The position numbers and the translations under genes are program-made. Positions 902 to 42,534 of a DNA stretch of 56,508 bases are shown piece by piece (the first letter of the stretch is position 1; every line of letters starts with the position of its first letter). The DNA comes from Aporhodopirellula sallentina SM41 (GTDB lineage: Bacteria > Planctomycetota > Planctomycetia > Pirellulales > Pirellulaceae), in NCBI RefSeq assembly GCF_000346505.1, contig NZ_ANOH01000206.1:1-56508 (forward strand), read 5' to 3'. The notes beneath the pieces were generated by a model. It did not search any database, was not told where the DNA came from, and worked only from the letters and a program-made list of their open reading frames with translations.

Positions 902-2896
902 ATGGGGTTGGTCTCAGACGTCATCGATTGGTTCTCCCCCGGTGAATTTGACGCTCATCAGGGACTCGAAGAACGCCGAGTTCGCACCCAGTTGTCTGCC
1001 ACGGTTTTCACGGGAGACGCACGAAATTGGATTGACTACCTCAGCCAAACTCCCGAAGAACGCTACAAAAACAAGACACGCGCTCTGATTCGATGGGAAC
1101 CTGAGAGCGAAACGCTTCGATTCGAACCTCTTGATGAAAACGCGGAGCCGCTAACCGACCTTCTGAACAAAACACATCGCGATGTTTGCAAACGACTCGC
1201 GAAACGGCCGATGCTATTGGAGAGTCTTCACGAAGCCATCTTTGAGAACGAGTCGAACCGAGAGAAGCCGCTCGAACTGCGACTAAGTTCGAAAATTCCC
1301 TCGCACGTGACGCGTGAGATGGGTCGCTCGACGACCTCCATCGTTTGCAACGCGAACGAAGTCGCCAAGATTCAATCACGTGTTGCAGATTGCGAATCCA
1401 ACGACGAACGTCTCGGTTACACATTGGCATTGCATGGACGGATCCTCTCTCGGCTGGCGTACAACAATCACCCGCGAGATCGTTTTTTCGAAAAGATACG
1501 TGTTGTCGCACAGTCACTGCCACTGCTGACACCGCTGCTCTATGAAGGGATGTCGTATGGAAGGCTCGTTCCGACCAAAGCCGGCAAAGTCAACGAAAAA
1601 CTGATCAGCAAACAGACCGGCATCCCGCAAAATCACCTGATCGACGACCACCCGTACTTCCGGATGCTCAACCGACTCGGTTCGATGCTCTTCGACTACA
1701 AACTATTCAAAGAACACGAGGACATCGTCGAACTCGTTGCTCGCGAATATGTTGACGAGAAATACCTGCGGCTCGGGATCAGCGGCATCATGCCTGACGT
1801 CACTGACACAATGCGGGCAATGAAATACAAACGAAAGAAGGACCGTATCCTGACCGACGCCCCGGAAATCGGCAGATATGGCATCCTTAACAAGAGCGAC
1901 AAGAAGGCGTGGAATCGAATAGCCAAGCCGATGAAATCGATGGGCTACACCCTGTTGTCGCAACTCGGTTCAGGAGAATTTGGCCGCGTTTACGACGCGC
2001 TGAACCAAGCCAATCCATCACTGCCGCTGCGTGTCGCGATCAAAGTCGACCGGTCTGTTAAGGAAGACGAAGCGAAGTCGATCCGTGACTCAGCGTCGAT
2101 GATTCGTATCGGCAGAGACCTCGCCAGGTCGCCGCACATCATCCGACTGTTCGATGCCGGACAAATTCCGGGAATGGGGAACAACTACCACATTCTACAG
2201 CGAGTCGATGGAGACACGCTGGACAACCTCATCGGTGTTACCGGACGAGAACACTCGAGCTTCATGAACAAACCGCGTCCCGGTCGAGACGAAAAATCAC
2301 GACGCGAGGACTATGAACAACGCATTAAGGAATCGCACGGCGAAGGTTGGCGACGGGAACGCATCACGCTGCCGTTCATCGCACAGCCCAACCTGCTGCA
2401 ATACGCAGAACTGCTGACCAGCATCCTGCTATGGGTCGAAAAGGTTCACGAACTCGGCTACGCGGTCAACGACCTGAAGAACGGCAACATCATGGTGAGC
2501 CGTCGCGGTCAACTCAAAGCAATCGACCTTGACTCCTACGGAACGATTCACGAACCGCTGGACAAGATTTCGGACTTTCTCTTTTTGTCCTCGAGCTTGC
2601 TGCTCGGCAGTATGCGACATCGAAACCGAACCATGTCAGCCTTGGAGGTGGAAAAGCTGTTGCGTTCCCCTGACGCACTGCGGGAGGTCCTCTCCAGCGA
2701 ACAAATTCATGACGAATCCGGCACGCCGCAATTTGGGAGACTCGCTCATCAAGAGTTCGTTGATTTCGAAGTCGATCTTTTGCACCGATGCCGTGGACGC
2801 AGATACATCGACGATCCGAATGAACTGAGCGCGGATATCGATCGGTTAATCCGTATCAAACGAGACATGTCAACCGACGAACTCGTCCTCGACTAA
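902..2896 (+). CDS. Atypical Ser/Thr protein kinase with large unknown N-terminal region
   Basis: A 664-residue protein. Residues 1 to about 345 match no family I recognise; they are charged and probably helical. Residues about 350-640 form a protein-kinase fold: glycine loop LGSGEFGRVY (355-364), the ATP-binding lysine in VAIKVD (K381), and a catalytic loop VNDLKNGN (522-529) that keeps Asp524, Lys526 and Asn529 but replaces the usual His-Arg with Val-Asn. The DFG triplet reads D-L-D (542-544). A basic insert of about 45 residues (around 450-490) sits between the lobes. No signal peptide or membrane segment is visible, so it is probably cytoplasmic. The ATG is preceded by AGGTGA at good spacing. 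The retained Lys and Asp residues suggest possible activity, but the substrate is unknown. The gene stands alone. Confidence 0.78.
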   Translation: MGLVSDVIDWFSPGEFDAHQGLEERRVRTQLSATVFTGDARNWIDYLSQTPEERYKNKTRALIRWEPESETLRFEPLDENAEPLTDLLNKTHRDVCKRLAKRPMLLESLHEAIFENESNREKPLELRLSSKIPSHVTREMGRSTTSIVCNANEVAKIQSRVADCESNDERLGYTLALHGRILSRLAYNNHPRDRFFEKIRVVAQSLPLLTPLLYEGMSYGRLVPTKAGKVNEKLISKQTGIPQNHLIDDHPYFRMLNRLGSMLFDYKLFKEHEDIVELVAREYVDEKYLRLGISGIMPDVTDTMRAMKYKRKKDRILTDAPEIGRYGILNKSDKKAWNRIAKPMKSMGYTLLSQLGSGEFGRVYDALNQANPSLPLRVAIKVDRSVKEDEAKSIRDSASMIRIGRDLARSPHIIRLFDAGQIPGMGNNYHILQRVDGDTLDNLIGVTGREHSSFMNKPRPGRDEKSRREDYEQRIKESHGEGWRRERITLPFIAQPNLLQYAELLTSILLWVEKVHELGYAVNDLKNGNIMVSRRGQLKAIDLDSYGTIHEPLDKISDFLFLSSSLLLGSMRHRNRTMSALEVEKLLRSPDALREVLSSEQIHDESGTPQFGRLAHQEFVDFEVDLLHRCRGRRYIDDPNELSADIDRLIRIKRDMSTDELVLD

Positions 2897-4437: not shown

Positions 4438-5565
4438 TTACGCAACCGCATCCATCGGTTCATATCCCCAACCCCGGAGTTTGCCGGCGGCAAAGGCATG
4501 GAACCGATCTTCCTCGATCGCTTGACGCGTTTGACGCATCAAGTTTCCGTAGTACGTGAGATTATGATGCGACAACAAAATGGGGCCTAACATTTCATTG
4601 GCGTTAAAGAGATGCCGCAGATAACCGCGGCTATGTCGACATGCGAGGCACGGACAATCTTCCATTATCGGACGGGTGTCTTCGCGATGGACTGCGTTGC
4701 GAAGCTTGATCGGCCCATCGTCAGTGAAGGCTAACGCGTTGCGGCCATTGCGGGTCGGCATAACGCAATCGAACAAATCGATCCCGCGGGCAATGTTCTC
4801 GAGTAAGTCACGAGGGGTTCCGACGCCCATGAGATACCGGGGCTTGTCCACGGGCAGATGCACCGTGGTGACCGCAGTGGTCGCGTACATTTCCTCCGGT
4901 GCTTCTCCGACGCTGAGCCCACCAACTGCGAATCCTTCGAACGGCATCGTCGCGAGTTCGGTGGCACACTGACGACGAAGCTCTGGATCCAAACCGCCTT
5001 GGACGATCGCAAACAAAGCCTGCTCGGGACGGTCTGCCGCATCGCGACACCGCTTCGCCCAGCGGATTGATCGCGCCAACGCATCTTCGACAACAGCCTG
5101 CTCTGCCGGCAACGCGATCACGTGATCAAGCACCATGGCGACGTCGCTGCCGAGTGCCTGTTGAATTTCGATCGAGTGCTCGGGCGTCAACTCAATCTTC
5201 GAGCCATCGAGATGCGACCGAAATGTCGCCGCCTGTTCGGTGACCTTGTTCAGGGCCCCGAGCGAGAAGACTTGGAAGCCACCTGAATCCGTAAGGATTG
5301 GTCCATCCCAACCGCACATTTTATGCAGCCCGCCGAGCCGAGCGACGGTCTCATGACCGGGCCGCAAACGCAGGTGGTAGGTGTTTCCAAGGATCATGTC
5401 GGCGCCGGTCGCGGCGACTTGATCGATCGTCAGCCCCTTCACCGTGCCGACGGTGCCAACGGGCATGAAACCTGGGGTCTGAACGTCGCCGCGAGGCGTG
5501 CGGAACACACCTCGACGGGCACCGTTGCTTTCGTGTTGCAGATCGAAGCGAAACACTCCGATCAA
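4438..5565 (-). CDS. tgt: Queuine tRNA-ribosyltransferase (tRNA-guanine transglycosylase)
   Basis: A 375-residue protein of normal Tgt length. It exchanges guanine at position 34 of tRNAs with GUN anticodons for preQ1 during queuosine synthesis. Seen: [14 protein letters not shown] (nucleophile region and substrate Asp), [27 protein letters not shown] with the second conserved Asp, and the zinc site [16 protein letters not shown] with three Cys and a downstream His. Its start overlaps the stop of the upstream TPR/alpha-CTD gene by four bases, a translational-coupling arrangement that ties the two genes together. No other queuosine gene is present in the window. Confidence 0.96.
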
Positions 5566-6893
5566 TCGCCACGCATTTTCAATCCGAGATCGCCGAGCTT
5601 CTCGCGAACCTCATTCAGACTGGTCACGCCGAAGTTCTTGCACTCGAGCATGTCGTCACCGGTCTTGCGAATCAGTTCGCCGATGGTGTTGATTTGCAAT
5701 CGAGTCATGCACTTACGGGCACGCACCGACAGGTTCAGGTCCGCGATCGGCCGTTCGAGCAACGCTTGCTCGTCCGCGGACATGTGCGAAGTATCGATTG
5801 GCGGATCGTTGCTCTTCTTCTCGCCAGCGAACTGGCCGAGCGACAACCCTTTCTGAGACAGCATTTCGCGGATCTCGACCAAGCTGGTCTCGCCGAAGTT
5901 TTTACTTCCGAGCAATTCCTGTTCGGTGTGCCGAGTCAGTTCGCCGATGGTTTCGATGCCCATCTTTTGCAGACAGTTACGGCTGCGAACGCTGAGTTCG
6001 AAGTTCGAGACCGGCATGTTGAGGATTTGAGCCAAACGGTCGTTGCGGCGTTGGGCTTCTTCGTCGTAGAGCATGTTGCCCGTTGCCGACGCGTCCTTCA
6101 TGTACAACGCGGTCCGCGGATGGCCGGGGAAGCAATCCAGGATTCGCTTGTAGCACATCTGTGCCTTATCGTACTCGTTGCGATCCTCGTACATCACGCC
6201 GAGGTTTGTCAACGCACCGAGTCCGGTCGGGAATGCTTTCGCGGCTCGCTCGTACAACTGCAACGCTTCGTCATCGTTGCCCAACCGGTCGTTTTCAAGA
6301 GCCAAACCGAACAGGGCACCGGCGTGATTCTCGTCGGTTGCGACCGCACGCTGGTAAAGGTTGATGGCTTCTTCCATGCGGCCACCGATTAACGCCGCAG
6401 TGGCGGCACGTTGGTACATGTAGTCGGCGGTTTGTTCGGCTGGTCCGAAGATGTCGTCGAGAATCGCCATTGCTTCCTCGATTTCGCCTGCGTAGCGTTT
6501 CGCTTCGGCGATTCCGATTTTGCACTGGTCTTCGTTGTAGCCGGAAACCTTGGCTTTCTCGTAGGCTTCGATCGACTCTTGATATTGACCGAGTTCGAAA
6601 CGGCATCGAGCACCGTAGAACAACGCCATCGCGCTGCCGTCGGCCGACGACAATGTTTCCAGAGCGTCGCTGAACCGGCCCAGCAAGAACTGGCAGACGC
6701 CCATCTTCGTGCGGTTGGCGGGAGTCAGAGCGGTGTCCTGCTCCATCTCCTGAGTCGCATCTCTCAGTTCACTGAAATGGCCGTAGTTTTCAGTCACGGC
6801 CTTGCGGATCTCAGCGACGTCGTTCGGGCCGAACGCGTTGCTAGCCAAGACCATTTGTTTCAAGTCGAGCACTTCGAGATCGACTTCGCTCAT
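5562..6893 (-). CDS. TPR protein with two RNA polymerase alpha C-terminal-like domains
   Basis: A 443-residue protein. Residues about 60-265 are TPR repeats (for example [20 protein letters not shown] and [18 protein letters not shown]). Two helix-hairpin-helix modules resembling the alpha-subunit C-terminal domain follow, at about 296-353 ([31 protein letters not shown]) and 383-440 ([31 protein letters not shown]). In the first, the residues matching E. coli alpha Arg265, Asn268, Cys269, Gly296, Ser299 and Glu302 are kept, while Lys298 is Thr. In the second, Asn268 becomes Lys. There is no N-terminal polymerase-assembly domain, so this is not RpoA. Inferred role: DNA binding at promoters or contact with transcription factors, with TPRs recruiting partners. 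It overlaps tgt by four bases. Confidence 0.88.
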
Positions 6894-20194: not shown

Positions 20195-22321
20195 CTACAA
20201 AGAGCTACCGTTCGGTTCTTCGATCACCTCAATCCATGGCGGAAGACTCCGCAGAACCTTCGCTGGCAATTGGTCCTTGCCAACGATGACCGTCCTCAAG
20301 CTGCGGATCGCACGAAGGGGACCGAGATCGGTCACCGGAGTTTGTCGAATATCGACCTGCATCAGGTCCAACTCCGCCAACTCGGATAGGTCGTGGATTG
20401 CCGTCTCGCGAAGATCCAACCGGATCGGACGCAGCGACTGCAACAGATTCACCTTCACAACAGCCGACAACCGGTCGAGACCGAACTGGACCGTTAAACG
20501 TTCGATCGGACCGTGCAACCGGATCGATTGCGAGGATGGCAAATAGGTAACTTCAATCCCCGGCAAGCTATCGTTGTTGATTCGCACCCATTGCGAAACA
20601 ATTTGCGTTCGCTCCTCCATGCTCCGTGGGAAACGTTGATCGAGCTCGATCATGCGATGCACCATCGCGATCCGCCTCCTCCGCTTCACGAGGTCCACCA
20701 AAAGGTCGCAAAACTGCTCCGCCGGTAGGTAACCTTCTTCGTTGCACTGCGATGCGTATTTACGGGCCAAGACAGCGAGATCGCCGTCCACCTTTCTGCC
20801 GTCATCGAGCAACCCTACCGCGGCGGCGAAGTCTTGCGATAGGAAGTGCAACCAAAACTTGTCCCGCCAGAGCTGCGGATTGTGTTCGGGCGCGTCCGCG
20901 ACGAGGTCATCGTAATGTTTGATCGCCATCTCGATGGCTTCCGAGTAACCCGATCCCGAAACGAGAGCGATATCACAAACCCGTCCCGTCATCATAGTAA
21001 TGATGGACTGTTCCCTTTTCTTATCGAGCACCTCGGCTTCGTTCTTCTTCTCCAAATACTTTGCCAAAGAGTCTTCCGCAAACAGTCTTGCTTCGTCCGC
21101 TTCCGCCTTCGCAGCGAGCGCGGCGAGGCCTGATTCCACCGCCTTGACCCGAGCGGCTTCTGCCATCTGGTGTCTCGTGTTGAGTTGCCAAACGAAGTAT
21201 GCGATGAAGATCGCCAACGCCAGGGACGCGCAGAGAACGGTCATGCACGCCTCGCGGTGACGCCGCCAGAACAATCCCATCTCGCGAAACAGATTGGCAC
21301 TTTCGACCGCAGGACTGAACCCGTTCAAACATCGAGATATATCATCGTGCAACGCCTGCGCGTCGTCGTACCTCGACGTCGGATCGTCCGCAGTCGCTTT
21401 CTTGATAATCGCGATCAATCCAGGATCCACCGTCCTGACATCTTTGACGTCATCAACGCATGGCTTGAGAAAAACGAGTTCATGCAAAACGCAGCCGAGA
21501 GCATAGATGTCCATGAACACGGTCTTCTTCGTCTGGCGTCGCTTTTGTTCAGGCGCCATGTAGGCAGGCGTGCCTCGAACGTCCACGAAGAGCGGTCCAT
21601 ACAGATCGGGGTCCAAGAGCACCTCCGAATCGCGGAGCCTGTTTTTGTCGGGCACAACGACGCCGAGTCCCCAGTCGCACAGTTTCGCGTCCCCAAACTC
21701 TCCGATTTGAATATTTCCCGGCTTAATGTCCAGGTGCAGAACGCGGCGTGAATGCGCATACGCGACCGCTTCGCAAATTCGCAGGAACCACCCCAACCGG
21801 GTTCGCAGCGGGAACTCTTCCGTCCGCTTTCCTTCTGACAAATCCTGAATGATCCCCTTGAGCGATTGGCCTCGCTTGAACTCCATCGTGAAGAACGGCT
21901 TGCCCTCTTCATCGACGCCGATGTCGAAGACATCAATCACACTCGGGTGCTGCAGCCGGGCGGTCAGGTGGGCCTCGCGCAAGAACGCATCAAAGTGTTC
22001 GTCACCGTGTTTGGCCAGAGGTCTCGCCAACGCGACGTGGCGAGCGGTCTTGGCATCGTAGACACGATAAACCTCCTTCATCCCTCCGCGGCCGGCAAAT
22101 TCAGGATCGCTGTATCGGGACCGAATCTTGCGTATCGTGTTGTAGAGCGGATTCAAATCACCGGATGGATTCTCGCCTTGCCGCTCGTCCTGCTGGGCGT
22201 CAAAAGACGCGCGGTACAACTCATGTGCGACGGACCCGAGCCGGTCGCTTCGCCGGGATTTTCGGCTATCCAAACCACTCACCACTTTCGTTTCCTGCCA
22301 TCGAACTTTGTGGTGAGTCAA
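20195..22321 (-). CDS. Membrane Ser/Thr kinase with WNK-like lysine placement and LRR-like C-terminus
   Basis: A 708-residue protein. Kinase domain about 72-335: the glycine loop reads G77-R-G-G-M-K82-E-V-Y, and the beta-3 strand reads VALA (96-99) where VAxK is expected, so the usual ATP lysine is absent and K82 occupies the third-glycine position. The rest looks active: Glu in FLREAHL, HLDIKPGN (D198, K200, N203), DWG instead of DFG (D216), and MAPEQ. A transmembrane helix (about 360-380) leads to a long external region that starts as coiled coil and ends with leucine-rich-repeat-like strands (IRLDLRETAIHDLSELAELD, LGPLRAIRSLRTV). The ECF sigma gene lies 117 bases upstream on the same strand, a pairing common in planctomycetes that suggests the kinase controls the sigma factor or its targets. 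Confidence 0.86.
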   Translation of the reverse strand: MTHHKVRWQETKVVSGLDSRKSRRSDRLGSVAHELYRASFDAQQDERQGENPSGDLNPLYNTIRKIRSRYSDPEFAGRGGMKEVYRVYDAKTARHVALARPLAKHGDEHFDAFLREAHLTARLQHPSVIDVFDIGVDEEGKPFFTMEFKRGQSLKGIIQDLSEGKRTEEFPLRTRLGWFLRICEAVAYAHSRRVLHLDIKPGNIQIGEFGDAKLCDWGLGVVVPDKNRLRDSEVLLDPDLYGPLFVDVRGTPAYMAPEQKRRQTKKTVFMDIYALGCVLHELVFLKPCVDDVKDVRTVDPGLIAIIKKATADDPTSRYDDAQALHDDISRCLNGFSPAVESANLFREMGLFWRRHREACMTVLCASLALAIFIAYFVWQLNTRHQMAEAARVKAVESGLAALAAKAEADEARLFAEDSLAKYLEKKNEAEVLDKKREQSIITMMTGRVCDIALVSGSGYSEAIEMAIKHYDDLVADAPEHNPQLWRDKFWLHFLSQDFAAAVGLLDDGRKVDGDLAVLARKYASQCNEEGYLPAEQFCDLLVDLVKRRRRIAMVHRMIELDQRFPRSMEERTQIVSQWVRINNDSLPGIEVTYLPSSQSIRLHGPIERLTVQFGLDRLSAVVKVNLLQSLRPIRLDLRETAIHDLSELAELDLMQVDIRQTPVTDLGPLRAIRSLRTVIVGKDQLPAKVLRSLPPWIEVIEEPNGSSL

Positions 22322-29755: not shown

Positions 29756-32700
29756 CTAAACCTGATTCCACTGCACGTCGGTGCGGGCGTGCAATCGTTT
29801 GCTGACTTGGGTGTTGCCGCCGGTGAGTGCTTCGAAGCGTTTGATTACGCTGTCGACTGGAATCTGTTGGGCTTCGTGAACGAGCACGGGTGTGATTCCT
29901 GGGATCACCACCGTCGTCAACGATCCTTGGTGAGCCGCGGATACCTTCGGCTCCAACCGCTCGCGTTCACCTTCACTGGAAACGAACAGCAAGAGACGTT
30001 GACGACCGCCGCATTGCAGCAAGCCCGGAACAGCAACCTTCAACGCCGATTCAATCGTCGTTTGCTCATTCCAACGGTTTCGTTGTCCGCCGGTGGGGCT
30101 GAACTCTTGCGTCTTCATCGGTGCGGATGCCGGCTCGCGATCTTCCGAGTTCATGTAGAACGCCGTCACCGTGGCTGTCTTTTGTGCTGTTTCTTCGACC
30201 CTCACTCCGAGCGATGCGGTGTTCGCGGTCTTCCCCCCTGCGGTGCTCGACACTCCGTCGCTGCAAGTGGTCGTAGACGACGATTCCGTCGCGCGGCGGT
30301 GTTGGTCGATCACGTCCTCCACCATCGGAAGACATTTCGCGACCAAGTCCGTCGCCATTGCCTCGACGTCCCACTTCGACTCTGGACTACGAACCGGGGC
30401 GATCAACCAACGCTGTGCGGTTTCACCGTGCAGGTGGTCGAGGATTTGAGGCAATCGCAGCTGAATCTCCTGCGGCATTTCGGTCCACGGATTTTCGGTG
30501 TCACGGTTGTCACCAGGAACCGTTCGCACCGCACGAGCGATTCCGATCGCAGCCTCGGACAAATGCGTGTGCAATCCCTCGAGTTGCCTACTCAACCGCA
30601 TATACGATTGGCTGGTCAACTGCTGCGCGATCGCCATCAAACGTTGCAGCGCGAGTGCCTCCGAGGCTTCGAGCCGATTGACCAGTTCATCGTCGCTCGT
30701 GTGCCCACCGTCAGTGATCTTGCTCGGGTGTTTTCCAGACTGATCCGAAAGCAATCGGGAAATTTCGCGGGTTTCCCCGATGAGTTTTTCGATCGCTTGT
30801 GCGGCGGAGGTCACGTCGATGCGTCCGTCCTGCAGACGCACGACGAGTTCACGTCGCAGCGAAACAATCTGAGCCGCAACCATGCGCTGCAATTGGGATC
30901 CGACGTCTGCATCGTCGAGACTGCCGAGGATGACCATCTCGATGGTTTCACATTGCGTGATCGATTCATCACTCAACGGCGACAGCAAAGAGGATAACCG
31001 ATCGACGATCGCGGCTTCGTTCGCTCCAAAGAGGGCTCGGATCTTTGCGACCATCGCGTCCGGATCCATGTCGCATCGTTTGCGGAGACGTTCGGCCAAC
31101 GGGCCAGCAATCTCTCGCGACTCAGCCGGCCGGCCGAGCCAACGCAGCAACAGATGCCGGGCCGCTGCGGGGGCGAGAAGGTTTTCCTCCAACGCGCGGA
31201 CACACTTCAATCTCGTCACGCCAACGCTGCGGATCATCGGCTTCGCCATCGCGTCGCCTTCGGACGTGTCACAGCGACGGGCGGACGCCAAAATTTCGCC
31301 CGCACCGGTCGCGTCCGCCCAAATGTAATCCACAATGGTCGCCGAGGCCGACGCGGATTCCGGCGACGACTGATCGCCGTCGAGAATCAGATAGGCGTCG
31401 CGCAACGGATTGCGGACGGCGGGAACGCCCGGCCAATCTACACCGTTGTCTCCCGGATAGCTGTTTCCCGGCGTGACATAGTGCCGAATTTCCGAAACAG
31501 CCGCATGAGTATCGTGCAACGAGACGCTTTGGTGCGGGTTGCCCTGCATCGCTACCGATGACAGCAACGGCAACACAGGAGCGTGCTCCAACCCGGCTTC
31601 GTCGAGCAAAGTGCGTAGACGCGGCGCGATGTCGAGCAGCATGCCGCTCGCCGTTCCTCCCGAAACCGATCCGACCAAATAGATCGACGGCACCCGTTCG
31701 CCGCAAACCGCAGCGAGGTGGTCGATCGAGTCGCGCAGTTCGCTATCGATTCTCTCCGCATGATCGACCATCGCGAGCCGACCGAGCGGACGCATGCCCT
31801 CGGTCGCACCGCTGCGAGGAACGTTGTAGATCCATCGACGCGAAACGTTCCGCAGATGCTCGGTTGGTCGGGCACGATAATCCGACGCCGATCGCAACGG
31901 CGTGTGAATGATCGCGGCCGGTGGAATCCGGTCGGACGCTTCGGTCAGACGTGCGGCGTGAATGGTATGCATGTCGGTGTCAATCAACACCGAGTGAAGG
32001 TCCAAAGGGCATGCCGAATGCAAAGTCGCCACCCGGCCGCGGAGTTCGTGCAGACATTCTGCACCGACTCCACCGATCGCCACGATCAACGCGTGTCCGG
32101 TCACGCGACTGCGGAGCAGTTTACTGTCGGCGGTCAGACTCGGCAGGTCCTCGACCGACGCGTCTTCTGGCACCGAAGCCGTCGTTGTGGTTCGCTGTAC
32201 TGTTGTGTCTTGACGCTGCCGCGGGGTTTTCAACGCATCGACAAATTCCTGACAGCTTTCAAAACGCCGATCAGGGTCTTTCTCCAAAGCACGAGCGACG
32301 GCCACACGATCGGCCGGCGGAAGTGGCTCCAAGTTCGGCGCCGCGTGCACGTGCTGCGTCGCCAACTGAGCGATCGTTCGCCCGGCGAATGGACGCGTTC
32401 CCGTCAGCAATTCCTGGTACATGACCGCGAGCGAATACTGATCGCTGTTCATGCTCGGCCGGCCATCGAACACTTCCGGCGGAGCGTAGATTGGCGTCAG
32501 TCCGCCGACGATGGAGTTGTCCGTCTCGCGGAGATCTTTCAGCAAACCAAAGTCACCGACTTTGACGTGCCCGCCGACCATCAACAGGTTGCCCGGCTTC
32601 ACGTCGAGGTGCTGTAACTGATAACTCTTGTGCAGATAATCGAGTGCATCGGCGGCGTCATGCAGATACGACAACAACGCCGCGCGGGGAATCCCGCACG

Positions 32701-33034
32701 AACCGCGGTCCTTGTGCCGCTTCAACACGTCCTCGAGCGATCCGTCGGCCAGTTCCGTGACGATTACCAATTGATCATCGACCACGCCGAATCGTTCGAG
32801 CGTCAACAGGAACGGGTGGTGCACCCCTTTGATCCGTTCGAGCGATTTCAGCTCGCGAGAACCACGATTCGCATGGGTGGCCCCAAAGACGATCTTCACC
32901 GCCTTCTTCAAACCACCGGGCGCGTTCGCACGCCAAACTTCGCCGAAACCGCCTTCGCCGATCTTCTGCTCGAGGGTATAGCCGGCGATCGGCTCATAAC
33001 CCGGCCCGATTTTGCGAACGCTTTGGACAGCCAT
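29756..33034 (-). CDS. Ser/Thr protein kinase fused to a tubulin/FtsZ-like domain
   Basis: A 1092-residue protein. Kinase domain about 17-270: IGEGGFGEVW (25-34), K47 in AVKIV, HLDVKPGN (142-149, D144), DFG (161-163), YAPPE, and NSDQYSLAVMYQEL. All catalytic residues are present. After a Thr-rich linker (about 275-310) comes a second domain: ALIVAIGGVGAECLHELR (315-332) looks like the first nucleotide-binding loop of the tubulin superfamily, and YLVGSVSGGTASGMLLDIA (452-470) carries the S-G-G-T-A-S-G form of the GGTGSG tubulin/FtsZ signature. This matches the Tubulin_2 (tubulin-like) family. Residues about 600-1092 are mainly helical with no recognised domain. No membrane segment. The AAA+ gene lies 123 bases upstream on the same strand. 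Inferred: a phosphorylation-coupled, possibly filament-forming regulator. Confidence 0.85.
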   Translation of the reverse strand: MAVQSVRKIGPGYEPIAGYTLEQKIGEGGFGEVWRANAPGGLKKAVKIVFGATHANRGSRELKSLERIKGVHHPFLLTLERFGVVDDQLVIVTELADGSLEDVLKRHKDRGSCGIPRAALLSYLHDAADALDYLHKSYQLQHLDVKPGNLLMVGGHVKVGDFGLLKDLRETDNSIVGGLTPIYAPPEVFDGRPSMNSDQYSLAVMYQELLTGTRPFAGRTIAQLATQHVHAAPNLEPLPPADRVAVARALEKDPDRRFESCQEFVDALKTPRQRQDTTVQRTTTTASVPEDASVEDLPSLTADSKLLRSRVTGHALIVAIGGVGAECLHELRGRVATLHSACPLDLHSVLIDTDMHTIHAARLTEASDRIPPAAIIHTPLRSASDYRARPTEHLRNVSRRWIYNVPRSGATEGMRPLGRLAMVDHAERIDSELRDSIDHLAAVCGERVPSIYLVGSVSGGTASGMLLDIAPRLRTLLDEAGLEHAPVLPLLSSVAMQGNPHQSVSLHDTHAAVSEIRHYVTPGNSYPGDNGVDWPGVPAVRNPLRDAYLILDGDQSSPESASASATIVDYIWADATGAGEILASARRCDTSEGDAMAKPMIRSVGVTRLKCVRALEENLLAPAAARHLLLRWLGRPAESREIAGPLAERLRKRCDMDPDAMVAKIRALFGANEAAIVDRLSSLLSPLSDESITQCETIEMVILGSLDDADVGSQLQRMVAAQIVSLRRELVVRLQDGRIDVTSAAQAIEKLIGETREISRLLSDQSGKHPSKITDGGHTSDDELVNRLEASEALALQRLMAIAQQLTSQSYMRLSRQLEGLHTHLSEAAIGIARAVRTVPGDNRDTENPWTEMPQEIQLRLPQILDHLHGETAQRWLIAPVRSPESKWDVEAMATDLVAKCLPMVEDVIDQHRRATESSSTTTCSDGVSSTAGGKTANTASLGVRVEETAQKTATVTAFYMNSEDREPASAPMKTQEFSPTGGQRNRWNEQTTIESALKVAVPGLLQCGGRQRLLLFVSSEGERERLEPKVSAAHQGSLTTVVIPGITPVLVHEAQQIPVDSVIKRFEALTGGNTQVSKRLHARTDVQWNQV

Positions 33035-33157
33035 TGAAACGAATCAGAAAAGGGAATAAATCGAAGGGGACAGCAAACAGTGTCGGGGCAAAACGATGAC
33101 ACGAACACGATGACAGCAAACGCGGCGAATCAAAATCAACCGCGAAAGCAACGATCC

Positions 33158-34483
33158 TTACAACGCGCTGAAGTAATTCTTGCAGGCTTGATCGAGGTAC
33201 TCAGGACGCAGCGTCAACGGGATCTTTCGGTACCGGCAAAAGTTCGCAACCTGCGTCAACAAATCGCGAGGATGACAACGACGTGGCGCACGCTTGCTTG
33301 ACTTGTAGAACGCGAGCAAATGCTCGGCGGCTTCCGGCGTCTCGGGGAAACCCATTTGAGCCCCCACGGTTTTCATCAAAATGCGAAATTCGTTTTCCGA
33401 CGGATCATCCACAAAGATCTTGTAGGGCACCCGACGCAGGAACGCCTCGTCCACGAGGTCATCCGGATTCAGGTTGGTTGAGAAGATGATCAACTGTTCG
33501 AACGGGATTTGAATCTTCTTTCCGGTCGGCAGCGTCAGGTAGTCGCAACGGTTTTCCAGCGGCACGATCCATCGATTGAGCAACTCTTCCGGGGCGATCC
33601 GTTGACGGCCAAAGTCATCGATCAACAAACAACCGCAGTTGCTCTTCATCTGCAGCGGAGCTTCGCACATGTTCGATCGCGAATCATGGCGTACCTCCAG
33701 GTTATCCATCACCAATTCGCCACCGACGACTACGCTTGGCCGTTGAATGCGGACCCAACGCTTGTCCCATTCCTGAGAGTTCAACATGCTGCCGTCCCCT
33801 TCCGGGATCGGTGCCTCTTGGTGAAACGCGTCGTCCTTGAGTTTGATCAGGTTGCCGTCATCGAGGATCGCATGCGGGATCCAAATCTCTTGACCGAGAC
33901 AACGTGTCAAACTGCGAGCGATCGTGGTCTTTCCATTTCCGGGAGGTCCGAAAAGGAACAACCCGGTATTGCTGTTGATCGCCGGGCCGAGTTGGTCGAG
34001 CAACTCGTCTTGGTACGAGATCCGCGACAGTGATTCTCGCAATTGATCGCGATCGATCGGGTCAACGCCCGCCGCCTGGGCTTCCACGCTCAACGTGTAA
34101 TCGTTTAGCGGAACGGGAGCGGGTCCGACGTAGCTGCACTGTGCAAAATGTGCCTGAGCCCTTTTTTGCCCGAGTTCGGTCAACGAGTAGTAGTAATCGT
34201 TGAACGCCGCCGGACGCACGTGAGCGACGTATTTGCGAACCCGAAGCGCGTCCACGATCGGCTCGACGATTCGAAACGGCAGGCCCAATCGCGCGGCCAC
34301 GTTGCGACCGCTGATCGTTCCCGTTTGGTGAACGGTTTTGACCAGCAACGACTCGACGAAAGTGATCGAGAGGCCGAGTTCATTCAGGCTCCGCGGTTCG
34401 GCTGGCCAGAACGTATCGTCCGTCAGCAGCCCGCCAAGCGCCGATGATTCGAAGCTATGGGTATCGGTCATCAATGCGGTCAT
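33158..34483 (-). CDS. AAA+ ATPase with N-terminal winged-helix-like region
   Basis: A 441-residue cytoplasmic protein. Residues about 30-125 look like a winged-helix module (LNELGLSITFVESLLVKTVH, VAARLGLPF, YYYSLTELGQKRAQ). The AAA+ domain follows: Walker A GPPGNGKTT, Walker B CLLIDDFG, a sensor-type Asn in LIIFSTN, an Arg-finger-like RRVPYKI, and C-terminal helices with CHPRDLLTQVANFCRYR. An insert after Walker A (DDGNLIKLKDDAFHQE) may form a substrate loop. Its family is an uncharacterised planctomycete AAA+ group; no closer name is justified. It is upstream of the kinase-tubulin gene and likely in the same transcript, so the two may form one complex. Confidence 0.85.
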   Translation of the reverse strand: MTALMTDTHSFESSALGGLLTDDTFWPAEPRSLNELGLSITFVESLLVKTVHQTGTISGRNVAARLGLPFRIVEPIVDALRVRKYVAHVRPAAFNDYYYSLTELGQKRAQAHFAQCSYVGPAPVPLNDYTLSVEAQAAGVDPIDRDQLRESLSRISYQDELLDQLGPAINSNTGLFLFGPPGNGKTTIARSLTRCLGQEIWIPHAILDDGNLIKLKDDAFHQEAPIPEGDGSMLNSQEWDKRWVRIQRPSVVVGGELVMDNLEVRHDSRSNMCEAPLQMKSNCGCLLIDDFGRQRIAPEELLNRWIVPLENRCDYLTLPTGKKIQIPFEQLIIFSTNLNPDDLVDEAFLRRVPYKIFVDDPSENEFRILMKTVGAQMGFPETPEAAEHLLAFYKSSKRAPRRCHPRDLLTQVANFCRYRKIPLTLRPEYLDQACKNYFSAL

Positions 34484-34699: not shown

Positions 34700-35527
34700 T
34701 CAATCCTCTAGCAAACGCGAGGCGATCACGCACGCAGCCGTTTCAACCCGCAAGATCCGTTTGCCCAGATCAATCGGACTCATGCCGGCGTCCACGCACG
34801 CGGAAAGCTCCTCATCACTGAAGCCGCCCTCCGGTCCGATCGCGCACTGCACTTTGACACGCCCCCATGAGTTTTGCCTCGATGACTCTTTCAACCCCGC
34901 AATCAGATCCCCGAGCGACTCGCCACCCGGCATCGCGATCAATCGAGCGTCCCACTGCGGCTGGCCTGATTCAATCGGCGCATCTTCCTCACGCGAATCT
35001 TCTTCCCCGATCGACTTTGCCGTCTGCGCAAAACCTTCCGACTGCAACGATGATCCGGATTCCATCCACTTGCGAAACTTCATCACCGGGGCGATCGACA
35101 TCAATTGATTTCGACCGGATTGTTTGCACGACTCGATGACGATGCGTTCCAACTTTCCGAGCAAAGAATCCGCCGGCGGACGCTGCGTCCGCTCACACAC
35201 GAGCGGCAGTACCCGCGCGACGCCGAGTTCGGTCAGTCGCTCGATCATTTCCTTCGCCCGGTCCGGTTTGGGCAACGCGATTGCCAACTCCAGGTAGACG
35301 CTCGGTTCGCGGTCGATGTTTTCGGGCTTCTCCGATCGGCAAACACATTGACGCCGGTCGACAAAGTTCACTGTGGCGGCGGCTTGGTTGCCCTTTCCAT
35401 CGAACAACTCAACCTCATCATCCGCTTGCACCCGCATCACCCGGGTGGCATGCATCGCCTCCTCCGAAGGCAACTCGACGAGCGGTTGCTGGGTCATTAA
35501 ATCGGGGGCGTAGTAGCGTCGCGTCAT
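34700..35527 (-). CDS. rsmE: 16S rRNA m3U1498 methyltransferase
   Basis: A 275-residue SPOUT-class methyltransferase that methylates N3 of U1498 in 16S rRNA using S-adenosylmethionine. Seen: the N-terminal PUA-like domain (HATRVMRVQADDEVELFDGKG), the AKEMIERLTELGVARVLPLV strand-helix, IVIESCKQSGRNQ, and the deep trefoil-knot end AIGPEGGFSDEE...LGKRILRVETAA, which binds SAM. A Glu/Ser-rich insert (about 175-195) makes it somewhat longer than the E. coli enzyme (243). The AAA+ gene follows 217 bases downstream on the same strand, with no obvious link in function. Confidence 0.94.
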   Translation of the reverse strand: MTRRYYAPDLMTQQPLVELPSEEAMHATRVMRVQADDEVELFDGKGNQAAATVNFVDRRQCVCRSEKPENIDREPSVYLELAIALPKPDRAKEMIERLTELGVARVLPLVCERTQRPPADSLLGKLERIVIESCKQSGRNQLMSIAPVMKFRKWMESGSSLQSEGFAQTAKSIGEEDSREEDAPIESGQPQWDARLIAMPGGESLGDLIAGLKESSRQNSWGRVKVQCAIGPEGGFSDEELSACVDAGMSPIDLGKRILRVETAACVIASRLLED

Positions 35528-35753
35528 TTCAAAAAGGCTCAGAAAGATTCAAGTTTCAAGGCGGCGAGGTTCACGTTGACCGTCGCAACCGTTAATCGAG
35601 CGCAAACCCGCAGAGGCGTTGCATCGGGCAGAGTTTAACGACTCGGTCGCACGACTCGCAGTGGCCCCGTCACGTTAGCCGATGAAATAGTCAATCGATC
35701 GTCCGTTGAACGCGCAAACCATTCAACCACTTCAATCAACGAGGCCTACTTCG

Positions 35754-36791
35754 GTGAACAGCGCCCCACGTTTCGTTACGCAGCCCCACACGGTCGCCGC
35801 CAACGCCGGTGACACGTACCCGCGAAACCGCGTCGCGTCCCACGAAGGCTTTGCCCCCAATGCGAACACATCCTCAAACCGAACGGACAATGAACCAACC
35901 CGTGGCGAGTTAATCGACGATCGTTTTCACCCGACGCCCTCCGCCTCGATTCATGAATTACCACCGGAAGTGCTGCGTCATTGGGGGCTGCTCGCCAGCC
36001 CGTTTTCACCGCACGCGATGGTCGATGTTCCCTGGGACGCGGCCAACTTCTATTTCCGTATCGCCTCGCACACGTCCGCGTTCTCCTGGCTGCAACGTCT
36101 CCTCAGTCGACCGGGATCTCTCGGCGTCGTGTCCGCGTCGACCGGAGCAGGATCGACGACTTGGTTGCGTCAACTCGCGGCGAGCTCCGGACTCGGTTCG
36201 ACCGCTTTCGAAACGGCCGTCGCGAACTGGCGAAACCAATCGATCGACGAGCTGACCGGTTGCCTGATGCGAACCGGCGGCAACGTCGAAACGCTCAGCC
36301 AAGTCCGCACGCTATGGCTGATTCAAACGCACCAGTCGCAAACAACATCCACGAAATTGAAGTACGCCGACATCAATCGCGCCGCGTTGCTGGCCGGATG
36401 GTATTCGGCTCGAGCGAACCGGCTTCGTAACCTGCAAGTTCTCGTCGTTCGTAAGCATCAACGCCGTTCGGCAGGTTCGAAACGATTCAGCATCGCGGCG
36501 GCGGATCGATTGGCAACGTTTCATCTCTCACGTCCCCACGCGAGCGAACTTCGCCGGTGCGTCAATGCAGCCATGCAGCACGCCGGAGCCACTCGGCCCG
36601 CGTTCACAGTCTCCGCCGCTACGCAACTGGCCGATTCGAGCGAAGGTTCCATCTCGCGACTCGCATCGCTTGTCCACGCCGCGCTCGTCCACGGACAAGT
36701 CGCCGGCATCCGGCAGATCACCGCCGCCGACCTGTCCACTCCGCTGAAAAATCACGCCGAAATGCCGAACACCACATCCAAGGCCGCCTAA
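35754..36791 (+). CDS. ExeA/GspA-like ATPase-type protein with degenerate P-loop
   Basis: Read from the GTG at 35754, which has an ACGAGG tract nine bases upstream (345 residues); a TTG at 35706 is the longest reading. After a disordered Asn/Thr-rich leader, HWGLLASPFSPHA and the Phe-Tyr stretch follow the ExeA-type start (HFGLxxxPFxxxxDxxFxY), and LQRLLSRPGSLGVVSASTGA-GSTTWLRQLA sits where the Walker A P-loop should be. The lysine of GxxxxGK(S/T) is replaced by Ser, so ATP hydrolysis is doubtful. The later part (LSRPHASELRRCVNAAM, ITAADL) resembles the helical lid of ExeA. Known relatives act in type II secretion or type IV pilus assembly. Stands alone between rsmE and a repeat. Confidence 0.65.
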   Translation: MNSAPRFVTQPHTVAANAGDTYPRNRVASHEGFAPNANTSSNRTDNEPTRGELIDDRFHPTPSASIHELPPEVLRHWGLLASPFSPHAMVDVPWDAANFYFRIASHTSAFSWLQRLLSRPGSLGVVSASTGAGSTTWLRQLAASSGLGSTAFETAVANWRNQSIDELTGCLMRTGGNVETLSQVRTLWLIQTHQSQTTSTKLKYADINRAALLAGWYSARANRLRNLQVLVVRKHQRRSAGSKRFSIAAADRLATFHLSRPHASELRRCVNAAMQHAGATRPAFTVSAATQLADSSEGSISRLASLVHAALVHGQVAGIRQITAADLSTPLKNHAEMPNTTSKAA

Positions 36792-39733: not shown

Positions 39734-40519
39734 ATGGCACTTAAACCCCACTGTATCTTTCAACGTGGTACCGGACCGATCATCGCAGCGGCGATACACA
39801 ACGGTCACCAAACTCGCAAGAGCGTCGAACAGCGTTTAGCGATCGACGACAAGCAGCAACTCCGCGAGGAGGATCCACTGACCGGCGAATGGACCCAAAT
39901 CGCCAAGACTCAAATCGTTGGCTTGCGTTCACGCTTTGAAGTCGACCTCAATCGTCCACGTGATAAAGCGGTCTACGAAACCCCAGCCGACGCCTGGGGG
40001 CTCGAGGTGTGGGATACGCCGCCGGACCAGTCGATGATCGACGCCTCTCTTCGCGAGTACGACGCGTTCTACGCCGAAGTCAAAGAACTGCTCACCGAGA
40101 TGCTCGACGAGTATCCCCGTGTCGTCGTCTACGACCTTCACACCTACAACCAACGTCGTGACGGTCCCGAAGGCCCCAAAGCCGATCCCACAACCAATCC
40201 CGAAGTCAACATCGGCACGGGGACGATGGACCGAGATTACTGGGCACCGGTTGTGGAGCGGATGATCCACGAACTCCGCGAGTACGACTTCCACGGCCGA
40301 AAACTCGACGTGCGAGAAAACGTCAAATTCCAAGGCGGACACTTCTGCGAATGGATCCATCAAACGTTTCCCAAACAAGTTTGCTCGATCGCGATCGAGT
40401 TCAAAAAGTTCTTCATGGATGAATGGGAAGGCGAAGCGAATCCAGCCCAAGTCGAGTGTATCTACCAGGCGTTGGAAACGACCGTCCCGGGTGTCCGCAA
40501 AGCGTTGGAGCAGATGTGA
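39734..40519 (+). CDS. N-formylglutamate amidohydrolase-family protein
   Basis: Read from the ATG at 39734 (261 residues); the frame is open to 39674. Seen: an early RGTGPIIAAAIHNGH with the first His, RFEVDLNRPRDKAVY (conserved Glu/Asp/Asn/Arg), VVYDLHTYNQRR with a catalytic or zinc-binding Asp-x-His, and IAIEFKKFFMDEW near the end. This fits the N-formylglutamate amidohydrolase (FGase, HutG-like) fold, which hydrolyses N-formyl or related amide bonds. No other histidine-degradation gene is present. It is joined to the QEGLA gene by GTGA overlap and to the ATP-grasp gene beyond, so it more probably trims a product of that small pathway. Confidence 0.86.
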   Translation: MALKPHCIFQRGTGPIIAAAIHNGHQTRKSVEQRLAIDDKQQLREEDPLTGEWTQIAKTQIVGLRSRFEVDLNRPRDKAVYETPADAWGLEVWDTPPDQSMIDASLREYDAFYAEVKELLTEMLDEYPRVVVYDLHTYNQRRDGPEGPKADPTTNPEVNIGTGTMDRDYWAPVVERMIHELREYDFHGRKLDVRENVKFQGGHFCEWIHQTFPKQVCSIAIEFKKFFMDEWEGEANPAQVECIYQALETTVPGVRKALEQM

Positions 40520-42534
40520 ACATTGGCTCGGATCGACTCGCTTCGTCGATCGATATCACAAACCGATACGAAACCACCGCGTCGATCACATGTGAGCGAC
40601 TCGCCAGGAACCAACGCGTTCGCCGAAATCTCCCCGAAGGCGGTCGCCTACGCTTCGACCGTCAATTGCCGTTTCTGTGCTTGTTCCGCGGCGACCTTAC
40701 CGGCCTATCCAATCCGGCCAATCACGCCCCCAATGCATCGCACAATCTAGCGTCGCACCAGAACGACGCATCAGCCCGAGAACTGATCACGTCGGAAGCC
40801 GCGTACGTGTTTGCCTCGGATCGAGACTCACATCATCGAGGTTTGTCGAACCTCTGTGGGATGATCAGCTCATCCATGCAGGAGCATTTCGGGACGTTCT
40901 TGCTGATCGAGGTTTGGGAGCGCGACACGGGAGATCAAGACACAGATACACCTGACTTCGAAGTCATCGTCCCATCGATCAACAGCATCGCATCCACAAC
41001 GGATACTCTCTGCGATGCACTTCGTACGATTCGAATCAGTGGACGGACACCTGTCGTGGTGAAAACCGAAGCAGAACCCGCGGAGGCACGAGGACTCCCC
41101 GAACTCGCGGCGCTTTGCGAGGACACACGCGGTGCGTGCTGCTACGTCGGAATTGTTGTCCGGCCCTTTTATCGCGACCACATTCACCGAAAAATCTACC
41201 CATTGGCCTTCCAAGGCCTACGCGGAAAACTCGCGCGTGTGATTCGCAAAACAGTCGCCGAATTCACAGGCAGTCCATCCGGCAAAGCACAACCACACTA
41301 CGACCACTATGGCCCGTCTTCGATGGTGAAAGCTGCTCGGTTGGTCGACCAACAGCTATGCGAAGTTGCCGATTCGTTCGATTACCTCTTGCAAGTAACA
41401 CCCGTTAACGCGGACGCGATCACGAGCCAAATTGACAAAACCGGTCAACATGAAGAACCGCCGATGCAGTATCGGCACCTGCCTCATCACCCGAACATAC
41501 TGAAACGACGTCTGTTTGATATCGAAATCGAACGAGTCGAAGACCCGACGCTCGCGCATCTGTTCTGGGAGAAGCAGGATGAGATCGACCGCCAACTTAC
41601 TTCTCTCCGCGATCTCCACTCGCCGGAGCTAGCCCTTCACGACGATCCGCAACCGTCTAATTTCCTAACGAGCAGTCTGCAACTCTACGGCAGCCCGGAA
41701 CCGTCGCTGGTCAAACTCGCGGCCGAAATCCTCGAACGAATTCCCAAACGAGTCAGTCCACCGAAGAAAACCGAAACGTCGCAGCACGGCGTTGACGCCG
41801 ATACGTTAATGCAGGCTGCTCGCGAAGAAATCGATTACTACCACGCGCGGATGACGGAGTTCAACGCGACCGTGGAACGCGACGATTCGATCGCGTCGGG
41901 CATCATGGTCTCCAAAGACAAACTGTTGGTCTCGCCCGATGTTTCCATTTCACGCGAACGATTGGCACCGTTGTTGCATCACGAAATCGGCACGCACTTG
42001 CTGACTTATTTCAACGGCCGGTGCCAGCCGTTTCGTCAATTGCATGGCGGACTGGCGAGATACGAAGAGTTACAGGAAGGGCTCGCTGTGCTCGCCGAAT
42101 ACCTCGTCGGCGGACTCACCCAATCCCGGTTGCGAACGTTGGCCGCTCGTGTGTTGGCCGTTGACTGGATGGTCGAAGGGCGATCGTTCCGCGACGTGCT
42201 TGGGAAACTTCAAACAAACCACGACTTTTCGCTTCGCCAAGCCACCACGATCACGGTACGTGTTTTTCGCGGCGGCGGATTAACCAAAGACATGATCTAC
42301 CTGCGAGGTCTTCGCGACTTACTCGACTACCTATCCAACGGCCATGACCTCGAACCGTTGTACGTTGGCAAAATCGGACTTCATCACGTGCCCTACATTC
42401 AAGAACTCCGGCGTCGTGGCGTCATCCTACCGCCACGAATCTTGCCGCGTTTTCTTGAAGACGACGCCGCCCGCCAACGTCTCGATGCGTGTCGGGGCAA
42501 ATCAGTTATCGACCTCCTGGAGAACACCGAATGA
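40516..42534 (+). CDS. QEGLA-motif metallopeptidase-like protein (DUF1704)
   Basis: Read from the GTG at 40516, which overlaps the previous stop as GTGA (672 residues); a longer frame opens inside the upstream gene and is rejected. Seen: LLHHEIGTHLL with an H-E-x-x-x-H site (H489, E490, H494), followed by EELQEGLAVLAEYLVGG, the QEGLA motif (Q520) that names the family, whose Glu would be the third zinc ligand. The N-terminal part (about 130-300) is a separate alpha/beta region. Members are annotated as flavohemoglobin expression-modulating proteins, and eukaryotic relatives of this fold are tubulin carboxypeptidases. Coupled by ATGA overlap to the ATP-grasp gene. Inferred role: a metallopeptidase in a peptide or amide modification pathway. 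Confidence 0.9.
   Translation: MNIGSDRLASSIDITNRYETTASITCERLARNQRVRRNLPEGGRLRFDRQLPFLCLFRGDLTGLSNPANHAPNASHNLASHQNDASARELITSEAAYVFASDRDSHHRGLSNLCGMISSSMQEHFGTFLLIEVWERDTGDQDTDTPDFEVIVPSINSIASTTDTLCDALRTIRISGRTPVVVKTEAEPAEARGLPELAALCEDTRGACCYVGIVVRPFYRDHIHRKIYPLAFQGLRGKLARVIRKTVAEFTGSPSGKAQPHYDHYGPSSMVKAARLVDQQLCEVADSFDYLLQVTPVNADAITSQIDKTGQHEEPPMQYRHLPHHPNILKRRLFDIEIERVEDPTLAHLFWEKQDEIDRQLTSLRDLHSPELALHDDPQPSNFLTSSLQLYGSPEPSLVKLAAEILERIPKRVSPPKKTETSQHGVDADTLMQAAREEIDYYHARMTEFNATVERDDSIASGIMVSKDKLLVSPDVSISRERLAPLLHHEIGTHLLTYFNGRCQPFRQLHGGLARYEELQEGLAVLAEYLVGGLTQSRLRTLAARVLAVDWMVEGRSFRDVLGKLQTNHDFSLRQATTITVRVFRGGGLTKDMIYLRGLRDLLDYLSNGHDLEPLYVGKIGLHHVPYIQELRRRGVILPPRILPRFLEDDAARQRLDACRGKSVIDLLENTE

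Follow-up and report, generated by a model that had tools for sequence, protein, structure and literature searches.

A family of bacterial tubulin relatives named FtsZl1, with four planctomycete members carrying an N-terminal kinase, was defined by Makarova and Koonin in 2010 (PMC2875224), and the planctomycete kinase fusion was repeated in a paper of 2023 (PMC9871819). T6-H7 and a tubulin-like C-terminal domain were not identifiable for the 2010 authors, who gave a referee three possible reasons and put first among them that these elements exist but have diverged too far; a referee also named one phosphodiesterase neighbour, Psta_0487, and the authors set the listed cases aside. According to the same authors, all characterised proteins of the superfamily had been shown to form filaments. 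Here we surveyed a gene of this kind in a stretch of 56,508 nucleotides of Aporhodopirellula sallentina SM41 (contig NZ_ANOH01000206.1, assembly GCF_000346505.1; the whole stretch is called the window), which encodes a Ser/Thr kinase fused to a Tubulin_2/FtsZl1 part (KT, for kinase-tubulin) beside an AAA+ ATPase. A preliminary description took this for the window's best candidate for an undescribed system; the fusion itself is no discovery, because both papers named above already contain it. What goes beyond the literature found is the whole, interrupted tubulin fold (as predicted), a module of KT with the AAA+ ATPase and an FHA-EAL protein, a phosphothreonine-reading c-di-GMP phosphodiesterase, and the unlinked co-occurrence of these genes in the window's genus. 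KT is not a categorically new protein; it is a known, uncharacterised one in a new conserved arrangement. No paper on a planctomycete FHA-EAL protein with a kinase or FtsZ was found, and absence from print is unproven as most subscription literature lay outside the coverage.

The loci were collected from a draw of 296 genomes of the order (three draws taken as identical, their handles agreeing), 108 of which gave a KT match, the match in G083 being a C-terminal remnant in a 137-residue frame. Sixty regions were fetched first and then 40 more, these 100 being drawn from the KT matches in the 108 genomes; with the best 80 of 134 candidate contigs and the window they make 181 KT loci (L numbers; some genomes appear twice), or 129 non-redundant loci at 85% identity. 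A partner was called near when it lay within 6.5 kb of KT, and 86 of the non-redundant loci, here called flanked, have at least 6 kb on both sides. L271-L277 were not counted because their Tubulin_2 protein has no kinase, nor L278, because the profile did not detect its Tubulin_2 protein. In a draw over the whole phylum, Tubulin_2 matched in 22 of 392 genomes. The same kinase-tubulin gene was also seen in L158, whose contig bears the label Candidatus Nealsonbacteria but is probably planctomycete and misbinned.

Few families are common near KT. Clustering of the first 61 loci (the first 60 regions and the window), in all of which KT carries the kinase, gave besides KT only three families exceeding 8 loci, namely AAA+, FHA-EAL and GGDEF. 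The FHA-EAL family had 57 members, with FHA found in 57 and EAL in 52 by Pfam. Of the 129 non-redundant loci, 108 have FHA-EAL near KT, 97 have AAA+, 85 have both and 9 have neither; for the 86 flanked loci the respective numbers are 79, 71, 67 and 3. The pairing with AAA+ in relatives, on which the preliminary description had staked its proposal, is thus present in 71 of these 86. Three gene orders account for 45, 21 and 16 of the 85 loci having both partners, and two others for the remaining 3. On gene content and order, KT, AAA+ and FHA-EAL are a gene module kept together across many planctomycetes.

The same neighbour families bear on two other explanations. The 2010 authors proposed a membrane-remodelling cytoskeletal role for FtsZl1 (PMC2875224), a family to which KT belongs, and the c-di-GMP (cyclic diguanylate) genes would then be peripheral regulators. 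We consider this unlikely: the vWA, OmpA and GTPase genes on which the proposal was based form no common neighbour family by clustering of the 61 loci, where the other families reach at most 8 loci and the smaller ones were not all identified. A defence or conflict function is suggested by PMC7159879, in which conflict systems built around GTPases in Firmicutes and Actinobacteria include tubulin-domain genes, and the kinase part of KT resembles defence kinases (PADLOC mad6, E 3.6e-45), as kinases generally do. This possibility is slight, since few gene orders are kept across families, the NCBIfam MAD6 score is 90 against a cut-off of 460, and PADLOC gave no match to the tubulin part or to the genome's own FHA-EAL. 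Its KT matches fall on the kinase part only (25 of 28 rows among the matches listed) and those of the AAA+ protein are weak and limited to P-loop stretches; a defence system was accordingly rejected. TRAFAC GTPase and HSP70 were not common KT neighbours by clustering, no profile search aimed at these having been made.

The two halves of the FHA-EAL protein differ in conservation. Of 108 FHA-EAL neighbours, 107 keep all seven FHA residues checked, and the remaining one is gapped. All nine EAL residues checked are kept by 58 of 64 members having no detected GGDEF-family gene near KT, versus only 3 of 44 having one, and the EAL state requires 6 changes on the KT tree. The FHA reader is therefore the constant part, and catalysis has apparently been lost in one large group. 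Two GGDEF-like neighbours from this group, L056 and L078, were scanned and gave receiver, GGDEF and CBS matches, the receiver of L078 being below the cut-off. The GG[DE]EF motif is kept in only 4 of 45 such neighbours (L094, L156, L157 and L195), among which L156 and L195 score low against the GGDEF family profile; the genes of L156, L157 and L195 may be unrelated to the module family. Going by the residues lost, the degenerate-EAL version of the module appears to have given up catalysis in both of its c-di-GMP enzymes together.

Three genomes from another family of the same class have a same-strand run of GGDEF, FHA-EAL, AAA+ and KT with an intact GGDEF motif, and in a fourth member of that family (L271) the Tubulin_2 protein has no kinase; L094, in the window's order, shares the four-gene order. 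Individual loci with a degenerate EAL and a nearby GGDEF-family gene, its motif usually lost, are L060, L065, L070, L074, L080, L082, L088, L089, L093 and L099. Away from KT, another large kinase gene stands directly beside FHA-EAL in 4 of 13 loci (L110, L112, L113 and L114), which suggests a wider pairing of kinase and FHA-EAL in planctomycetes.

The window is grouped with L129, L131 and L130 (its nearest rows) in a set of four lacking FHA-EAL, the place being filled by RsmE. Its genome does carry FHA-EAL on another contig (C135:37949-39061), 69% identical to a module member, with Pfam matches to FHA (E 4.5e-17) and EAL (E 6.3e-38) and with the FHA signature and EAL catalytic residues intact; this partner, outside the genus the steadiest of the KT neighbours, escaped the preliminary description because in this genus it lies elsewhere. 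The genomes of L066 and L075 likewise carry it elsewhere. Of 13 genomes of the window's genus, searched at E 1e-30, the same 11 gave matches to KT, AAA+ and FHA-EAL alike, and G681 and G683, with completeness ratings of 99 and 97%, gave none to any of the three. KT and FHA-EAL are separated by over 1 Mb in two single-contig genomes, lying at 0.85 and 6.72 Mb in G677 and at 5.60 and 6.88 Mb in G679. If the genes were independent, KT and FHA-EAL would both be absent from the same two of 13 genomes with a probability of 1 in 78, a figure weakened in that G681 and G683 may share a single loss.

The same association was counted by hand over the order draw. A KT-type AAA+ match (E 1e-139 or better, a cut-off set after the values were seen) is present in 98 of 108 genomes with KT and in 1 of 188 without it, this one (G202) having a cut KT beside its AAA+ gene (L279). 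FHA-EAL at 1e-40 is found in 71 of 108 genomes with KT and in 5 of 188 without; degenerate members may be missed because the search query has an intact EAL.

The KT gene was analyzed for its domains (Table 1). Both open reading frames are present as first described, 123 bases apart with the AAA+ gene upstream on the same strand. Pfam gave Pkinase at residues 19-240 (E 1.1e-30) and Tubulin_2 (PF13809) at residues 316-523 (E 8.4e-18; 65.2 bits against a gathering cut-off of 27), the only Tubulin_2 match of the genome; KT as a query gave 53 matches in its own genome, nearly all on the kinase part. Mean identity to the window KT is 31% over the 129 non-redundant sequences, and a kinase match is present in 127 of them, the exceptions being L154, which begins at a contig edge, and L234, of 839 residues. 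With the window included, K47 is kept in 126 of 129 (the other 3 being gaps), D144 in 125 and D161 in 127, and KT has the catalytic Lys, Asp and DFG of a Hanks-type Ser/Thr kinase. IGGVGAE (T1) begins at residue 320 and SGGTASG (T4) at residue 458, where the preliminary description had placed them; the first Gly of T1 is kept in 129 of 129 sequences and the two Gly of T4 in 129 and 126. The joining of an intact kinase to a tubulin-type domain in one chain, which was claimed from motifs, is thus upheld by profile matches and residue conservation.

Table 1. Positions of the KT gene, its parts and adjacent genes in the window
Feature	Position	Strand	Remarks
KT gene (Ser/Thr kinase and tubulin-fold Tubulin_2/FtsZl1 fusion)	29756..33034	-	1092 aa
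KT kinase domain, residues 19-270	32225..32980	-	Pfam match 19-240, end extended to approximate domain end
KT Thr-rich linker, residues 271-312	32099..32224	-	Candidate autophosphorylation and FHA docking site
KT tubulin N-terminal nucleotide-binding domain, core helix and strand S7, residues 313-610	31205..32098	-	
KT mostly helical insertion between S7 and S8, part disordered, residues 611-989	30068..31204	-	
KT tubulin-fold C-terminal part (S8 to H11), residues 990-1092	29759..30067	-	Near-invariant R, R, D, W
AAA+ ATPase gene, conserved KT partner	33158..34483	-	441 aa
Walker A GPPGNGKT of AAA+ protein, residues 179-186	33926..33949	-	Residues counted from sequence
RsmE rRNA methyltransferase gene	34700..35527	-	Outside module; occupies FHA-EAL place of relatives' commonest gene order

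Structure prediction of the window KT gave a complete two-domain tubulin/CetZ fold, C-terminal domain included, and the homologue L093 was likewise predicted to have the whole two-domain fold. The superfamily assignment, for which structure prediction had been proposed as the check, is in line with this. The fold of the window KT is predicted to be interrupted between strands S7 and S8 by about 380 mostly helical residues, an insertion missing from the natural homologues L074, L089, L093 and L099. The "about 500 helical residues" earlier placed at the end of the chain are instead these mostly helical or disordered residues, followed by a conserved alpha/beta C-terminal part, and the supposed tail is, by the predicted structure, an insertion within the fold. 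The models therefore suggest a complete but split tubulin fold. It was found by structure comparison only: a profile search of PDB sequences matched the helical insertion, with no tubulin among the best 60 of 124 matches, and PF00091 (FtsZ-type Tubulin) was unlisted for KT up to E 1 in Pfam. A viral library gave one named phage tubulin (E 1.7e-5) and one unnamed match (1.1e-4), others being weaker than 0.001, and PHROGs gave no match to the tubulin part.

The AAA+ partner is better conserved than KT, with a mean identity of 59% to the window protein over 94 sequences, the window included. Walker A (GPPGNGKT), Walker B (LLIDDF) and sensor 1 (FSTN) are present and mostly conserved in these 94 aligned sequences, and the protein is below every Pfam gathering cut-off, its Walker motifs being clear nonetheless. 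A spastin-like severing ATPase was considered and left unused: spastin gave the best PDB sequence matches, limited to residues 145-201, and the protein shows by eye, before sensor 1, a hairpin-like segment characteristic of other AAA+ clades. Identity to a stand-alone paralogue is 46% in the window's genome and about 46-54% in the others listed, and no neighbour gene was common to all its loci examined.

On linkage, co-occurrence, conserved residues and the predicted fold, we hold it somewhat probable that KT stands at the centre of a signalling module of planctomycetes comprising kinase, split tubulin, AAA+ and FHA-EAL. Nucleotide binding or self-assembly of the tubulin part would bring KT kinase domains together, and these would phosphorylate threonines of KT's own linker; the FHA domain of FHA-EAL would then bind the linker phosphothreonine, placing a c-di-GMP phosphodiesterase at the complex. 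The state of KT would thereby set the local c-di-GMP, which the docked FHA-EAL would lower. The AAA+ ATPase, going by its enzyme class, is probably a remodeller that unfolds or resets KT or its complex. The output would probably be a decision under c-di-GMP control, for instance on surface attachment or on the stage of the cell cycle, and not division itself. A more specific version, in which a phospho-switched KT polymer assembles, autophosphorylates and recruits an FHA-tethered phosphodiesterase, with a dedicated AAA+ disassembling it and the GGDEF cyclase opposing in the four-gene version, is offered tentatively and is rather doubtful.

The linker was searched for a docking motif. In a first set, 20 of 56 kinase-tubulin linkers contain T[EQ]x[FILM], where 4.0 are expected by shuffling, and in a second set 20 of 71 linkers do, where 5.6 are expected. 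The controls S..[FILM] and [FILM]..T were raised in neither set, and a motif with Asp at +3, tried as a candidate, showed no enrichment. The motif is a lead for FHA docking, not proof.

Several points weigh against the signalling module. The motif was chosen after the first set had been seen and then tested on the second; the control [EQ]Tx[FILM] gave 4 against 4.2 in the first set and was somewhat raised in the second (10 against 5.4); the shuffles overstate significance because the linker sequences are related, and the window's own linker is without the motif. Of 108 FHA-EAL neighbours 45 have a degenerate EAL, and 41 of these lie close to a GGDEF-family gene; c-di-GMP turnover therefore cannot be a universal output. 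FHA-EAL was not found near KT in 7 of 86 flanked loci (the window, L129, L130, L131, L066, L075 and L092), nor AAA+ in 15 of 86. The AAA+ protein may not be specific to KT because the stand-alone paralogue exists, and since this paralogue was likewise not found in G681 and G683, the co-inheritance argument is weakened for AAA+. KT itself was unmatched in 188 of the 296 genomes of the order draw, 114 of the 206 good ones among them. The catalytic T7 motif of tubulins is of NxDxxD type; no canonical T7 was seen by eye in alignment columns 250-299, which makes GTP (guanosine triphosphate) hydrolysis and polymerisation doubtful.

The last point belongs also to a rival explanation, in which KT is a non-polymerising nucleotide sensor or scaffold: binding of GTP or GDP (guanosine diphosphate) would switch the kinase, there would be no filament, and the insertion and T7 loss would have removed assembly. 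We regard this as quite possible, short of an even chance. An Asp stands at position 262 of P0001 in 30 of 59 rows and at position 271 in 29 of 59, and the insertion occupies the place between S7 and S8 where tubulins have the M-loop, which has a role in lateral contacts. The strong conservation of the T1 and T4 loops and the complete lack of the insertion in four natural homologues speak against it, as does the 2010 statement that characterised superfamily proteins had all been shown to form filaments (PMC2875224). The sensor overlaps with the signalling module, because the latter requires no filament.

FtsZ was searched by PF00091, which was found in none of 30 genomes, the window's own and 29 relatives (E 0.001 in its own genome), against 13 of 14 controls; the earlier remark that planctomycetes lack FtsZ agrees with this. 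Replacement of FtsZ by KT in division gains its appeal from that absence and is most improbable, KT being unmatched in the 188 order genomes (114 good ones) and in 2 of 13 congeners. As the match is missing from many genomes, KT is dispensable in evolution, and replacement was ruled out on distribution. To our knowledge, planctomycete division without FtsZ is unexplained.

Other genes of the window were noted. A MATCAP family protein (microtubule-associated tyrosine carboxypeptidase; PF08014, E 3e-83) is encoded at 40423-42534 (+), about 7 kb from KT, overlapping the end of an N-formylglutamate amidohydrolase-like open reading frame. It was rejected as a tubulin-modifying partner; the proximity is probably chance, because the gene was not found in the other loci searched. 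Further Pkinase matches lie at 902-2896 (+) and 20195-22321 (-), and 5562-6893 (-) encodes a tetratricopeptide repeat protein that, oddly, also has two stretches matching the C-terminal domain of the RNA polymerase alpha subunit. Divergent from RsmE, an open reading frame of 361 residues at 35706-36791 (+) has no Pfam match up to E 1 and a weak NCBIfam match, far below cut-off, to an XrtA/PEP-CTERM-associated ATPase.

These data offer a testable connection of a tubulin relative with both Ser/Thr kinase signalling and c-di-GMP, and suggest that this relative is wired to second-messenger signalling in bacteria lacking FtsZ. If the polymer version were true, these bacteria would have in KT a cytoskeletal device that keeps time or senses position for the switch between motile and sessile states. 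Two questions of 2010 are also touched. Whether FtsZl1 keeps the filament elements is answered with yes at the level of the predicted fold, T7 excepted, and for the meaning of the c-di-GMP neighbour a conserved, co-inherited FHA-EAL partner is now provided.

Among known systems, bacterial Ser/Thr kinase and FHA reader pairs of the GarA/OdhI type are comparable in that the kinase has a conserved FHA partner whose phosphopeptide residues are intact; in the present module an EAL domain is joined to the FHA domain and a tubulin fold to the kinase. The predicted KT fold matches the CetZ/tubulin structures 3zid, 4b45 and 2bto at 8-17% identity among the matches listed; unlike these, KT has the kinase fusion and, in most members, the inserted helical domain, and the canonical T7 was not found. 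The GTPase-tubulin-HSP70 conflict systems (PMC7159879) likewise place a tubulin-domain gene in a conserved neighbourhood, the partners named for them being GTPases, HSP70 and vWA as against FHA-EAL and GGDEF beside KT. KT's own family, FtsZl1/Tubulin_2 (PF13809), is described in PMC2875224 with an FtsZ-like domain, then a long helical region, then a C-terminal part, which is the order seen in KT. KT differs in that T6-H7 and the C-terminal domain are now predicted, split by the insertion, and in its partners, which were vWA, OmpA and GTPase for FtsZl1 in 2010 and are AAA+, FHA-EAL and sometimes GGDEF for KT.

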